Assembly (NCBI RefSeq): GCF_023715895.1
Contig: NZ_JAMBOO010000001.1
Span: forward strand, 496,001 to 560,000
DNA from: Domibacillus indicus
GTDB lineage: Bacteria > Bacillota > Bacilli > Bacillales > Domibacillaceae
DNA length: 64,000 nucleotides
Direction of reading: 5' to 3'
Below the pieces are notes generated by a model. It did not search any database. It was not told the origin of the DNA and saw only the letters and a program-made list of their open reading frames with translations. Both the position numbers and the translations under genes were made by a program. Positions 3,351 through 49,216 of the stretch are shown here, piece by piece. Positions within the stretch are counted from its first letter, which is position 1, and every line of letters begins with the position of its first letter.

Positions 3351-4880
3351 TTACGATGTTTTTTGTTTCATTAATTCCCCGCGCGTTGCCAGCTCCATAA
3401 TGGCTTCCTGTGAAGCTTCCGATCGGTCAAGCTCCCCTGTCTGGTATCCTTCACTCATGACGACAATACGGTCACTCAGCCCGATCACTTCCGGCATTTC
3501 CGAAGATACGACAATAATGGCTTTGCCCTGCTTGGCCAGCTCAAAGATCAAGCTGTAAATTTCACTTTTCGCACCGATATCGATGCCGCGAGTCGGCTCG
3601 TCCAGAAAGAGAATATCCGGGTTGTGAAGGAGCCAGCGTCCGATAAGCACCTTTTGCTGGTTGCCTCCGCTTAAATTGCTGATCAGCTGGTCCATATTCG
3701 GCGTTTTAATATTCATTTTTGCCTTTTGGTCCGCACAGTCGCTCTCAATTTTCTTCCGGTCAAGCAGTCCGCCTTTTTTATACTTGTTGATATTCACCAT
3801 GATCATGTTATCCCGCACACTGAGCGGCAGGAAGCAGCCGGTTAACTTCCGGTCTTCTGTCAAAAGGCCGATGCCAGCGCTGATCGCATCTTTCGGCGAA
3901 CGCATTTTTTTGGACTGGCCGCCAACAAGAATTTCTCCTGAATCTGCCTGCATCGCACCGAAAATGGTTTCCAGGATCTCACTGCGTCCAGAGCCCATTA
4001 AACCGGCGATGCCGAGTACCTCTCCTTTACGGACCTGGAAATTCACATCGTAAAACTTTCCTTCTTTTGTTAAGTTTTTGACTTCAAGCGCTACTTCCCC
4101 AATGTCTGCATGCTCTTTATTAAATACCTGGGAAAGCTCGCGGCCGACCATCATTTCAATCAGGCGTTCACGGGACATATTGTCAATAGAATCTGTGCCG
4201 ACATACTGGCCATCACGGAAAACAGTTAATGTATTGGCAATTTGCTTGAGTTCTTCCATCTTGTGCGTAATGTAAATGATGCCGACGTTTTTCTTTTGCA
4301 GCGAGCGGATAATGTCAAATAAATGGGCAACTTCTTTGTCGGTAATGGCGGATGTGGGTTCGTCCATGATGATAAGCTTTGAATCGTAGGAAACCGCTTT
4401 GGCGATTTCGACCAGCTGCATTTTTGCTACCGTTAAATCAACCATTTTGGCTTTTGGATCGATCGTTGTAATGTTCAGGCGTTCAAAAAGCTCTCTCGTG
4501 TTGGCCACAAGCTGCTTTTGGTTAACCAGACCTGTTTTGCCGTAGGTCGGCTCGCGGCCGAGGAAGATATTTTCTGCCACAGTCATTTCCGGCACGGGGT
4601 TTAATTCCTGGTGAATCATTGAAATGCCTTTATCAAGCGCTTCACTGACATTGTTAATCTTCAATTCTTCACCGTCGAATAGGACGCTTCCCGTGTCAGC
4701 AGTATAAATGCCGATCAGGATTTTCATCAGCGTGGATTTACCCGCGCCATTTTCACCCATCAAGGCATGTACTTCGCCTTTTTTTACATCCAGACGAACG
4801 TTTTGGAGTGCTTTAACACCCGGAAAGCTTTTTGATATCCCTGACATTTGCAAAATATATGGAGATGTCATTTTTTTCAC
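3351..4880 (-). CDS. Sugar ABC transporter ATP-binding protein with duplicated cassette (RbsA-like)
   Basis: The 509-residue protein carries two fused ABC cassettes, as in RbsA/MglA/XylG. The first has Walker A GENGAGKST near residue 43, and its ABC signature is degenerate (TVAKMQLVEIAKA). Its Walker B is LIIMDEPTSAI. The second cassette has a degenerate Walker A (GLMGSGRSE), a good signature LSGGNQQKV and Walker B ILFLDEPTRGI. A degenerate second nucleotide site is normal for this family. The start follows a GAGGTG site. It energises import through the adjacent permease. The gene is separated from the binding protein gene by a 220-bp gap holding a structured repeat. Confidence 0.93.
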   Translation of the reverse strand: MKKMTSPYILQMSGISKSFPGVKALQNVRLDVKKGEVHALMGENGAGKSTLMKILIGIYTADTGSVLFDGEELKINNVSEALDKGISMIHQELNPVPEMTVAENIFLGREPTYGKTGLVNQKQLVANTRELFERLNITTIDPKAKMVDLTVAKMQLVEIAKAVSYDSKLIIMDEPTSAITDKEVAHLFDIIRSLQKKNVGIIYITHKMEELKQIANTLTVFRDGQYVGTDSIDNMSRERLIEMMVGRELSQVFNKEHADIGEVALEVKNLTKEGKFYDVNFQVRKGEVLGIAGLMGSGRSEILETIFGAMQADSGEILVGGQSKKMRSPKDAISAGIGLLTEDRKLTGCFLPLSVRDNMIMVNINKYKKGGLLDRKKIESDCADQKAKMNIKTPNMDQLISNLSGGNQQKVLIGRWLLHNPDILFLDEPTRGIDIGAKSEIYSLIFELAKQGKAIIVVSSEMPEVIGLSDRIVVMSEGYQTGELDRSEASQEAIMELATRGELMKQKTS

Positions 4881-4980
4881 CTCGAAATGGTTTTAATAGA
4901 AGGCGGGCAGCCATTGCTGCCCGGTCTTCTTAATTGTCGCGCTTGAAGCTGACGTACTTTAGGCTTGATTCTCCAGACTG

Positions 4981-5100
4981 TGTCTAGCTTCAAGCGCCAT
5001 CGGCTCGAGGTCATAAGTCAAGCCCTTCTGGAGGTATAAAGCACCTCCAGGAGGGCTCACCTTATACTTGTCGCCGATAAGCAGGCGCTTTATGCTTTTC
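4981..5100 (+). repeat. Structured intergenic repeat, copy 1
   Basis: This roughly 120-bp element lies inside the transporter operon between the ATPase and binding-protein genes, on the strand opposite to the genes. An outer stem pairs AAGCGCC (4992-4998) plus ATCGGC (4999-5004) with GCCGAT (5073-5078) and GGCGCTT (5084-5090), leaving a 5-nt bulge. An inner stem pairs AGCCC (5021-5025) and CTGGAGGT (5028-5035) with ACCTCCAG (5043-5050) and GGGCT (5053-5057). A conserved TCGAGGTCATAAGTCAA block (5005-5021) lies between the stems. A second copy at 47821-47940 keeps the same architecture with compensatory changes. From memory, similar repeats are common between genes in Bacillaceae. Confidence 0.8.
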
Positions 5101-6054
5101 TTATTGCCATTTTTTGATATATGTTTCCACGTTTTCCGGTATGATCAATTCAAATGGAATGTAGTTCATTTTTTCAACTTCTTCGCCTTTTGCTGCTTTT
5201 GCTGCAATTTCAAGCCCTTTTGATCCTTGGCCAGCTGCATCCTGGAATACAGAAACTTTCAGCTTTCCTGATTTTACATATTCAAGTGCATCCGGTGTAC
5301 CGTCAATGCCTGCTACAGTTACTTCTTCAAGTTTGCCGGCTGCTTCAAGTGCCATGATCGCGCCAATGGCCATTTCATCGTTATTTGCTACAACAGCGTC
5401 AATTTTCTCTCCTGATTGCAGCCAGTTTTCCATCAACGTCATCCCTTTTGCGCGATCCCAGTCTGCATTCTTTTCTTTTACTAGTTTCATGCCTGGATTT
5501 TTCTCGATTACTTGCTTGTTTCCTTCCGTGCGCTTGATTTCCGCCTCCTGTCCAGATTGGCCATTCATGATTGCCACGTTCCCTTTACCGCCAAGAAGTT
5601 TTGCGACTTGTTCCATTTGCATAATGCCTGAATCAATTGAGTTTCCGCCAACGAATGCTGTTGCATCTTCAATTTCTTTATACGTACGGTTCACGACCAC
5701 AATTGGAATTTCTGCTGCATTTGCCATGTCTACGATTGTGCCTACAGATTCTGTATCAACGGGTACGATTGCAATTGCGTCTACACCTTGGGAAATAAAC
5801 GTTTCAACCTGAGACATTTGCTTCGCTGCGTCATTCATTGCATCTACATAAACACCTTCAATATCGCCAGCTTTTTTCTCGTAATCCGTCATACCGTCCT
5901 GCAGGTAGCTGAGCCATTTATCATCAAAGTCTGGGAGTGCCACACCGATTTTTAATTTTTCCTCCCCATCTGCACCTTCCCCGCCTCTACATCCTGCCAA
6001 TACAGCTGTTAGTGCTACCATCAATGCCATGAACAGAAAAAACTTTTTCTTCAT
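5101..6054 (-). CDS. Sugar/cyclitol ABC transporter substrate-binding lipoprotein (rhizopine/inositol-binding-like)
   Basis: The 317-residue protein has a lipoprotein signal peptide with lipobox LAGC (Cys at about residue 22) and a type-I periplasmic binding fold. It would be anchored outside the membrane and deliver substrate to the adjacent permease. The block IGVALPDFDDKWLSYLQDGM, the stretch VVANNDEMAIGAIMALEAAG, the segment AGIDGTPDALEYVKSG and the end IPFELIIPENV resemble the rhizopine/inositol-binding subgroup more than classical RbsB. It is the first gene of the operon, behind a promoter, a LacI-type operator and a cre site. Ribokinase and RbsD genes are absent, so ribose is not assured. 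Confidence 0.87.
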   Translation of the reverse strand: MKKKFFLFMALMVALTAVLAGCRGGEGADGEEKLKIGVALPDFDDKWLSYLQDGMTDYEKKAGDIEGVYVDAMNDAAKQMSQVETFISQGVDAIAIVPVDTESVGTIVDMANAAEIPIVVVNRTYKEIEDATAFVGGNSIDSGIMQMEQVAKLLGGKGNVAIMNGQSGQEAEIKRTEGNKQVIEKNPGMKLVKEKNADWDRAKGMTLMENWLQSGEKIDAVVANNDEMAIGAIMALEAAGKLEEVTVAGIDGTPDALEYVKSGKLKVSVFQDAAGQGSKGLEIAAKAAKGEEVEKMNYIPFELIIPENVETYIKKWQ

Positions 6055-29573: not shown

Positions 29574-29597
29574 ATAAATAGGTGCTCCATACAAGTA

Positions 29598-29956
29598 TGG
29601 AGACGGCGGGAGTCGAACCCGCGTCCAAAGATAACGGCACCTGAGCGTCTACGGGCGTAGCTGCACTATTTCGGTCTCGCCGGCCCAACTGCCGCACAGC
29701 AGGCGTTTGGATCGGCCAGCCTGATTAGTCTCTTCTCTCATCCCCAGGCGGAGGAATTGAGCGTAGTCCGCTTAAAGTGAGCCCCTTACCCGACTGCACG
29801 GACAACAGCGGGAGGAGCACAGGCTAACCTAAATTAGGCAGCTTGTAGTTGAGTTTGTTGTTTGCCAGTTATTATAGGCAAGTGCGTTTTGACAGAGCCG
29901 ACCCTCTGGCCCGCAGCCCAGGCTCGAACTACCCCTGTCGAATCCGTAACGTCCCC
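29598..29956 (-). ncRNA. ssrA: Transfer-messenger RNA (tmRNA)
   Basis: The 5' end GGGGACGTTACGGATTCGAC and 3' end with GGTTCGACTCCCGCCGTCTCCA form the tRNA-like domain, with a 7-bp acceptor stem GGGGACG/CGTCTCC. The tag frame on the minus strand runs from 29866 to 29834 (GGC AAA CAA CAA ACT CAA CTA CAA GCT GCC TAA), encoding GKQQTQLQAA after the alanine carried by tmRNA. The 3' CCA is not encoded: the discriminator A at 29598 is followed by TAC. With SmpB, encoded next to it, tmRNA rescues stalled ribosomes and tags the product for proteolysis. Confidence 0.96.
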
Positions 29957-47820: not shown

Positions 47821-47940
47821 AAGAAAAGCGAAAACGGCCGTTTAGCCCCGACAGGTATAAGACGACCTGTCGGAGTGGCGCTTTTTGCCACATAGACAGG
47901 TTGACTTATGACCCCGAGGGGCTGGCCGTTGCAGCTGGAC
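47821..47940 (-). repeat. Structured intergenic repeat, copy 2
   Basis: This element has the same family and architecture as 4981-5100. In plus coordinates AACGGCC (47833-47839) and AGCCCC (47844-47849) pair with GGGGCT (47918-47923) and GGCCGTT (47924-47930), with a 4-nt bulge on the same arm. The conserved block (47901-47917) differs at one of 17 bases. Inner hairpins are CCGACAGGT/ACCTGTCGG (47848-47873) and GTGGC/GCCAC (47875-47891). The outer stem sequence differs from copy 1 but pairing is kept. Confidence 0.8.
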
Positions 47941-47970
47941 AATGTTAGAGCATTATTTTATAAAGAGCAA

Positions 47971-48072
47971 AGGCTAAAAGCGCGACGTCCTGTTGCAACG
48001 CCTTCGTGACCCTTGAATGCAATGGATCAAAAGCTAAAACCGCCGCGTCCTGCGACAACGCTTTTGTGACCC
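47971..48072. repeat. Tandem pair of 42-bp repeats with 60-bp period
   Basis: Positions 47971-48012 and 48031-48072 align without gaps at 33 of 42 bases (shared core GCTAAAA...CGTCCTG...CAACGC...GTGACCC). They lie between copy 2 of the structured repeat and the trxB terminator in a 476-bp gap without genes. Function unknown. Confidence 0.65.
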
Positions 48073-48087
48073 ACTTCCTGTGGGCCT

Positions 48088-48120
48088 AAAAAAAGCGCCT
48101 GGTACTGAGTACCAGACGCG
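48088..48120 (-). terminator. Terminator of trxB
   Basis: In the minus strand CGTCTGGTACT-C-AGTACCAGGCG is followed by seven T's. It lies about 90 bp past the trxB stop. Confidence 0.7.

Positions 48121-48208: not shown

Positions 48209-49216
<1,008 letters not shown>

Follow-up and report, generated by a model that had tools for sequence, protein, structure and literature searches.

A dispersed, covarying hairpin element of the Bacillales that probably inserts into T-tracts beside terminator-like hairpins

Introduction

In a stretch of 64,000 nt from Domibacillus indicus (the whole of it is called the window here), a hairpin of 122 nt separates two genes of a transporter operon, and a second hairpin of the same fold lies elsewhere in the window. 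The stems of the two differ in sequence and remain paired. The initial annotation attributed this to selection on a folded RNA or a cruciform DNA, and proposed that the operon copy sets the relative expression of its neighbours. This raises the question of what maintains the pairing, and whether the hairpin serves the genes beside it. Our analysis indicates that the repeat is probably a small, non-autonomous mobile hairpin element, which uses T-tracts adjacent to hairpins, typically those of intrinsic terminators.

Two copies of one hairpin in the window

The features of the window are summarized in Table 1. The genome of the window is denoted G000 and a second genome of the same species G041; R1 is a covariance model built on six copies from G000, and R2 is a wider model.

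Table 1. Repeat copies and neighbouring features in the window
Feature	Position	Strand	Remarks
ABC transporter ATPase gene (PF00005)	3351-4880	-	next gene in the operon
Native intercistronic hairpin GGGCAGCCATTGCTGCCC	4905-4922
Spacer between native hairpin and copy 1	4923-4980		58 nt; absent from L217-L219
Copy 1	4981-5102	+	122-nt hairpin element; 135.5 bits with R1; ends 5′ TGTCTAGCT ... GCTTTTCTT 3′
Sugar-binding-protein gene (periplasmic, PF13407)	5101-6054	-	stop codon 5101-5103
tmRNA gene (RF00023)	29595-29956	-	184.1 bits
Copy 2	47821-47941	-	121-nt hairpin element; 120.9 bits with R1
Bacillaceae-1 RNA (RF01690)	47958-48016	+	beside copy 2, on the opposite strand to it; 45.8 bits
Second Bacillaceae-1 RNA (RF01690)	48018-48084	+	in tandem; 70.7 bits
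Native terminator-like hairpin and T-tract	48088-48120	-	after the gene at 48209-49162

Each copy forms a single long hairpin, with folding energies of −59.2 kcal/mol (copy 1) and −57.3 kcal/mol (copy 2). An unpaired TGTC start is followed by the outer stem and by a second stem stacked on the 5′ arm, opposite which the 3′ arm carries a bulge of 4-5 nt. The interior consists of a conserved part (TCGAGGTCATAAG / CTTATGCTTGTCG in the consensus), a variable inner stem, and an A-rich loop, and the 3′ end is GCTTTTCTT.

The initial annotation described much of this correctly. TCG[A/G]GGTCATAAGTCAA is common to both copies, and the bulge, of 5 or 4 nt, is on the same (3′) arm in both. The outer stems differ yet pair, AAGCGCC/GGCGCTT in copy 1 corresponding to AACGGCC/GGCCGTT in copy 2, and a further stem behaves likewise (ATCGGC/GCCGAT versus AGCCCC/GGGGCT). 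The inner hairpins had been taken as unrelated; they are in fact homologous, with the same position, A-rich loops that resemble each other, and stems that covary throughout the family.

Copy 1 does lie inside the transporter operon, between the sugar-binding-protein gene and the ATPase gene. At its 3′ end it shares bases with the stop codon of the former, which is encoded on the opposite strand; the T-tract and the operon lie on opposite strands. Rfam returned four weak matches at copy 1, none near its gathering score, and no RF01690 match up to an E-value of 5. Neither copy matches RF01690; only the two neighbours of copy 2 do.

Stem pairs covary by stepwise compensation

The annotation had suggested a search with a covariance model, and this search retrieved many further copies, with stems that covary far beyond chance. 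Among 147 distinct aligned copies, 39 of the 42 pairs contain double changes, and standard pairs make up 92.0% of the cells. The number of double-changed cells is 1209, compared with a mean of 361 after shuffling (0 of 500 shuffles reach the observed value), and none of the five measures was reached by any of the 500 shuffles. Because this alignment had been fitted to the model, the count was repeated with 74 distinct copies from unused loci. Again, 39 of the 42 pairs are double-changed, in 628 cells versus 188 after shuffling (0 of 500); standard pairs amount to 91.2%, and the covariation score is 0.518 versus 0.156. One of the 500 shuffles reached the number of pair types, and none reached any other measure. 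The covariation thus supports selection on a folded molecule, i.e. a folded single strand of RNA or DNA.

Closely related copies show how the changes arise. In 26 pairs of copies that differ at 1-5 positions, 24 single-sided changes face 2 double changes. Double changes accumulate with divergence and dominate only at larger distances between copies. Single mismatches between near copies and double changes between distant ones are the pattern of stepwise compensation.

The element is common in the order and rare in the wider phylum

R1 identified 13 distinct places in G000 (17 matches, 4 of which are opposite-strand duplicates) and 15 in G041. Related repeats had been expected in this genome and in relatives, and R1 matches were indeed found in 37 of 41 genomes (G000 and 40 relatives), ranging from 1 to at least 87 per genome, counts that may include opposite-strand duplicates. 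With R2, the element was detected in 119 of 150 sampled genomes of the order, representing 66 of 84 genera, and in 6 of 398 genomes drawn from the phylum; the latter comprise five of seven genomes of the same order (G000 included) and one of the nine further genomes from the same class. Copy counts per genome in the order and phylum samples are lower bounds (23 and 9 candidates were scored per genome, respectively). Carriers among the matches listed include Rossellomorea, Cytobacillus, Metabacillus, Siminovitchia, Peribacillus, Neobacillus, Niallia, Jeotgalibacillus, Sutcliffiella, and Gottfriedia, a set biased towards one type of inner module, because the pattern scan demanded exact motifs of that type.

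Two sets of matches were analyzed further, i.e. A4, the best 150 of 176 matches, and A5, with 65 rows. Removal of overlapping opposite-strand matches and of short ones left 199 matches in 122 clusters, 117 of which are unique by their 3′ flank. The held-out set comprises 77 matches in 52 clusters, 51 of them unique.

Plasmids and phages yielded no match with one copy as the query, a search in which the variable stems reduce sensitivity. The pattern is present in a single viral contig, L271 (IMGVR_UViG_3300017655_000192), where the copy lies near the end of the sequence stretch and could be host DNA. Copies also occur in a record titled Pseudomonas sp. ISL-84 (L145, L160), the label or assembly of which may be wrong. 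We found no description of the family in the open-access literature, a scope outside which subscription journals mostly fall.

Orthologous sites are occupied in some genomes and empty in others

At the site of copy 1, the element is absent from four relatives (L216-L219), as shown by comparison and by the lack of a model match. The intercistronic hairpin exists at this site even without the element; in element-free relatives such as L217, a T-rich stretch and then the stop codon come after its counterpart. Judged by eye, the 58 nt that separate copy 1 from the native hairpin may be left over from an earlier insertion.

Two further sites were compared in 13 congeneric genomes. The L255 site has no model match in nine of them, and in all nine the TAA of the converging frame runs straight into an A-tract with a hairpin behind it, which on the opposite strand is the T-tract of a terminator. 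At that point, the element is present in G010 and, with additional leader sequence, in G000, and G041 and G008 hold a derivative that has lost the inner hairpin. The L246 site is empty in seven of the 13 genomes, and there too the A-tract and hairpin come right after the converging stop. One copy lies within the T-tract in each of G003 and G005, the copy of G010 lies behind a stem remnant, G000 and G008 have the remnant alone, and G041 has a remnant plus a full copy in the T-tract behind it (remnants were identified by eye).

At the site of copy 2, the terminator-like hairpin is common to the genomes, and the sequence behind it varies; by eye, a hairpin with a T-tract occupies this position in the 13 congeneric genomes compared, with the repeats behind it. 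The element model matches in five of the 13 (G000, G041, G008, G010, and G003). Bacillaceae-1 reaches the gathering score in nine, i.e. G000, G041, and G005 (two matches each), G008, G010, G003, G006, G001, and G009, and neither match was obtained for G007, G002, G004, and G011. By eye, Bacillaceae-1 units number three in G041 and four in G001, and G004, G009, and G011 retain remnants.

All insertions are deduced from the comparison of sites, none having been observed as it happened. Some assignments made by eye gave no Rfam match at the gathering score: a T-box in L251, a Bacillaceae-1 unit in L216 and L252, and a Bacillaceae-1-like sequence at the copy-1 site of G041.

Placement in T-tracts next to hairpins at the sites compared

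We also determined the placement of the clusters relative to converging reading frames, which were counted if they had at least 100 codons and a stop within 300 nt. The 3′ end of the element is at most 5 nt away from the converging stop codon in 33 of 59 clusters (held out: 17 of 25), whereas the 5′ end is never that close (0 of 54 clusters; held out: 0 of 26). The pooled values are 50 of 84 clusters for the 3′ end versus 0 of 80 for the 5′ end; the other 34 of the 84 clusters have a facing stop within 300 nt and do not adjoin it. The empty sites explain the contact, since there the T-tract of the terminator adjoins the stop codon of the converging gene.

Terminator-like hairpins were counted in 111 of the 117 clusters and in 50 of the 51 held-out clusters. 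On the plus strand, they occur within 90 nt upstream of 15 of the 111 and 15 of the 50 clusters, with 0.4 and 0.2 expected from shuffled upstream sequence. The respective numbers are 4 and 6 for the upstream minus strand, 1 and 0 for the downstream plus strand, and 1 and 2 for the downstream minus strand. This strict test is positive upstream of only 30 of the 161 clusters, and some of the others follow other repeats; a unit that is present in G041 and absent from G000 (L248) adjoins a T-run without a hairpin. An upstream gene would be followed by a terminator in any case, and the empty sites therefore speak more strongly for placement in T-tracts.

A target-site duplication was not detected: in 114 of the 122 clusters (8 with short flanks or N were dropped), the similarity of the flanks equals that of permuted pairs, a test in which a few T's duplicated within the tract could go unnoticed.

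The genes around the element vary in orientation. For 102 clusters, the flanking genes are arranged ++ in 53, -- in 21, +- in 15, and -+ in 13 cases, and 10 clusters lie within a mechanically called open reading frame of at least 100 codons. A codirectional start is found within 200 nt in 35 clusters without a converging frame, nine of which lie 13-17 nt before the start codon. L003 follows an FMN riboswitch and precedes a start codon; L251 is flanked by a terminator on one side and a start codon on the other.

Wobble pairs point to the complementary strand

The noncanonical pairs reveal an asymmetry between the two strands. They were counted at positions with more than 80% Watson-Crick cells, i.e. 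at 38, 33, and 37 of the 42 pairs in A4, A5, and the held-out set A6, respectively. In A4, G·T is nearly absent, with 26 of 5611 cells versus 76 for A·C. The A·C to G·T ratio is 25:16 in A5 (p 0.21, weak) and 42:18 in A6. By locus, A·C is more frequent in 64 and G·T in 16, with 23 ties; related copies are not independent in these statistics. The bias is found beside converging stops (52:20) and in other contexts (49:12), and it is weaker before codirectional genes (42:26).

An A·C on the strand shown is a G·U on its complement. The complement also has the better predicted RNA fold for 174 of 191 copies and, in the held-out set, for 65 of 74, numbers that are non-independent because the constant parts are common to all copies. 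These results suggest that the strand complementary to the orientation shown, i.e. the A-tract strand, is the one that folds, which is compatible with RNA as well as with single-stranded DNA. They also suggest that the strand bias belongs to the element's own life and not to local transcription.

Arrays, exchanged modules, and Bacillaceae-1

Copies often follow one another. We found 96 pairs of neighbours on the same strand, 0-4 nt apart, and in the same survey no two copies on opposite strands within 60 nt of each other. In 33 of the 96 pairs, the string similarity is below 0.8, and therefore the arrays are not merely the result of tandem duplication. The 3′ end of the element is again a hairpin with a T-tract, which would account for the head-to-tail arrangement. 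Some array neighbours have common outer stems and different inner modules, of the types GGTCATAAG, GGTCAAATAACC, or GTCGCTTC (L138:1894-2265, L019:1376-1743, and L028:1258-1985), suggesting that inner modules are swapped between neighbours. By eye, some first copies in different genera share a leader of about 40 nt (roughly TAAGAAAGTATAAAATTTTTGAACTTNG), often after a terminator (L132, L134, L142, L105, L123, L029, L032, L104, and L117); none of these leaders lies between array members.

Sites also differ between the two genomes of one species. The flanks at the compared sites of G000 and G041 are 95-99% identical. In L004/L249, the stems at the same site are completely different. In L003/L254, the outer stem is the same and the inner part is exchanged for a Bacillaceae-1 module (an RF01690 match within the element, at L254:1527-1592). 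L002/L252 have a different element plus further sequence, and at copy 2 the element is almost the same and the Bacillaceae-1 stretch differs. Either replacement or independent insertion at the same spot could be the source of these differences.

Bacillaceae-1 modules that are fused with the element or nested in it are backed by Rfam matches inside it in L254 and L248. Among 38 loci scanned with Rfam, 13 contain Bacillaceae-1 matches, 10 of them within about 200 nt of an element, and in nine of these ten adjacent cases the Rfam strand is opposite to the orientation of the element.

A probable mobile hairpin and its alternatives

Together, these observations are best explained by a mobile element of about 122 nt that forms one long hairpin and is preceded in some cases by a leader of about 40-50 nt. 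Its landing site would be a T-tract on the immediate 3′ side of a GC-rich hairpin, in the typical case that of an intrinsic terminator. Each inserted copy would recreate this target, because the element itself ends in a GC-rich stem plus TTTTC, so that further copies or Bacillaceae-1 could insert behind it and build head-to-tail arrays. The element would probably move as a folded single strand, for which the wobble pattern suggests the A-tract strand. Stem pairing would be maintained because only well-folded copies are propagated, leaving the letters free to drift by stepwise compensation. The dispersal, the variable copy number, the occupied and empty sites, the T-tract placement at the sites compared, the arrays, the undetected target duplication, and the stepwise compensation are observations; we infer a single-stranded intermediate, mobilisation in trans by an enzyme that the searches for Y1 and RVT_1 did not reveal, and selection on mobility over host function.

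Regulation of the transporter operon, which the initial annotation had proposed, is not supported as the main explanation, because relatives lack the element at the same site, because its copies are dispersed at unrelated genes, and because its placement tracks the combination of hairpin and T-tract; tuning of the operon might be a side effect. More generally, the hairpin could be a cis-acting regulatory RNA that determines relative expression, processing, or partial termination of its own transcript. The conserved unpaired motifs, the location of copy 1, and the clusters close to codirectional starts would fit, and of the bcr repeats in two strains of the B. cereus group, 84 of 165 and 62 of 155 are given as lying within an mRNA (PMC3446304). 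Nevertheless, the unrelated genes in all orientations, the orthologous sites without element, and a wobble bias in every gene context tested argue against such a role, and a strong terminator before the start codons at L003 or L251 would presumably be hard to tolerate, so that we regard it as improbable. The covariation could, in addition, be a mutational by-product without selection, if one arm served as the template for the other, each time in a single step (templated quasipalindrome correction). The very low number of G·U pairs and the many double changes are in line with this; the prevalence of single-sided changes among near copies is not, and we consider it very improbable.

Two alternatives name the enzyme that would move the element. 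A REP-type element could be moved as single-stranded DNA by a Y1 HUH transposase (RAYT-like), consistent with the palindrome, the lack of a detected target duplication, the strand-specific fold, and the intergenic dispersal. We place little credence in a Y1 transposase as the partner for two reasons: none of 30 Y1 loci retrieved after a search of 41 genomes has an element match in its flanks of up to 1.5 kb, and Y1 matches are missing from G003, G005, G016, and G020, which have 62, 30, 52, and 67 element matches, respectively. A SINE-like retroelement would start from a U-tailed transcript with a terminator-like 3′ end, for which an A-tract would serve as the site of reverse transcription, comparable to the use of terminators by group IIC introns (PMC4424553). 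The shared kind of target, the 3′ end fixed in the T-tract with a variable 5′ junction and leader, and the undetected target duplication are compatible with this route. It is quite improbable, given that the wobble bias points to the complementary strand and that a reverse transcriptase is missing from several genomes with many copies: RVT_1 (PF00078) is present in 20 of 42 genomes searched, and no match was found in G041, G005, G013 (54 element matches), G016 (52), G031 (65), or G040 (77). G041 lacks RVT_1 and yet holds a unit that is missing from G000. The present-day lack of Y1 or RVT_1 does not exclude a past partner.

The mobile hairpin can also be framed more boldly as a bacterial counterpart of SINEs. 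Such a gene-less element would have a terminator hairpin and T-tract as its own 3′ end as well as its landing site, would spread as a folded single strand with the help of an enzyme in trans that is neither Y1 nor RVT_1, and would form a modular superfamily with Bacillaceae-1, with which it exchanges helices. In its entirety, we consider this proposal unlikely.

Relation to known repeats and significance

The nearest known systems are Bacillaceae-1, the bcr repeats, and modular structured repeats such as BOX and EFAR; for the target, they are group IIC introns. The EFAR repeats of Enterococcus faecalis are reportedly modular stem-loop repeats, the targets of which can form stem-loops, and the target stems are mostly lost there; in contrast, the terminator stem is kept at the sites of our element. 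The name EFAR appears in PMC3733652. BOX of Streptococcus pneumoniae is described as a modular structured intergenic repeat of variable length that varies between strains, similar to our element, but with terminal inverted repeats and target duplications (PMC3049150), whereas no duplication was detected here. The bcr1 repeats of the Bacillus cereus group are likewise short dispersed Bacillus repeats with mobile features, but in the cited accounts bcr mobility is tied to a TTTAT motif and to that group (PMC6542083, PMC3446304). Group IIC introns also insert at intrinsic terminators (PMC4424553), a likeness of target that is no proof of membership; they are ribozymes with a reverse transcriptase, while the element has about 122 nt and many copies in genomes without RVT_1. 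Compared with a classical MITE, the element ends (TGTCCAGCT and GCTTTTC) are not long inverted repeats, and the target-site duplication expected of a MITE was not found in the 114 clusters.

The element accounts for an intergenic feature that is common in the order. It cautions that strong covariation in an intergenic hairpin need not signal a host regulatory RNA. Terminators would be repeated landing sites, and insertions would shift gene boundaries between strains. The rewriting of sites between two strains of one species renders the mechanism testable. Furthermore, the results suggest that Bacillaceae-1, a candidate RNA of Rfam, is a mobile element of a similar sort.

Bacillaceae-1 is listed as a candidate RNA in PMC2864571. 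It resembles the element in occurring in the same genomes, often at the same sites, and in sharing hairpin modules, and differs from it in consensus and fold. In the genomes analyzed here, RF01690 behaves as a dispersed, tandemly arrayed element, with matches in 31 of 41 genomes and at least 94 in G009, and the number of units varies between genomes at a single orthologous site, that beside copy 2 (47958-48084 on the plus strand; L326-L331 and L334-L336).
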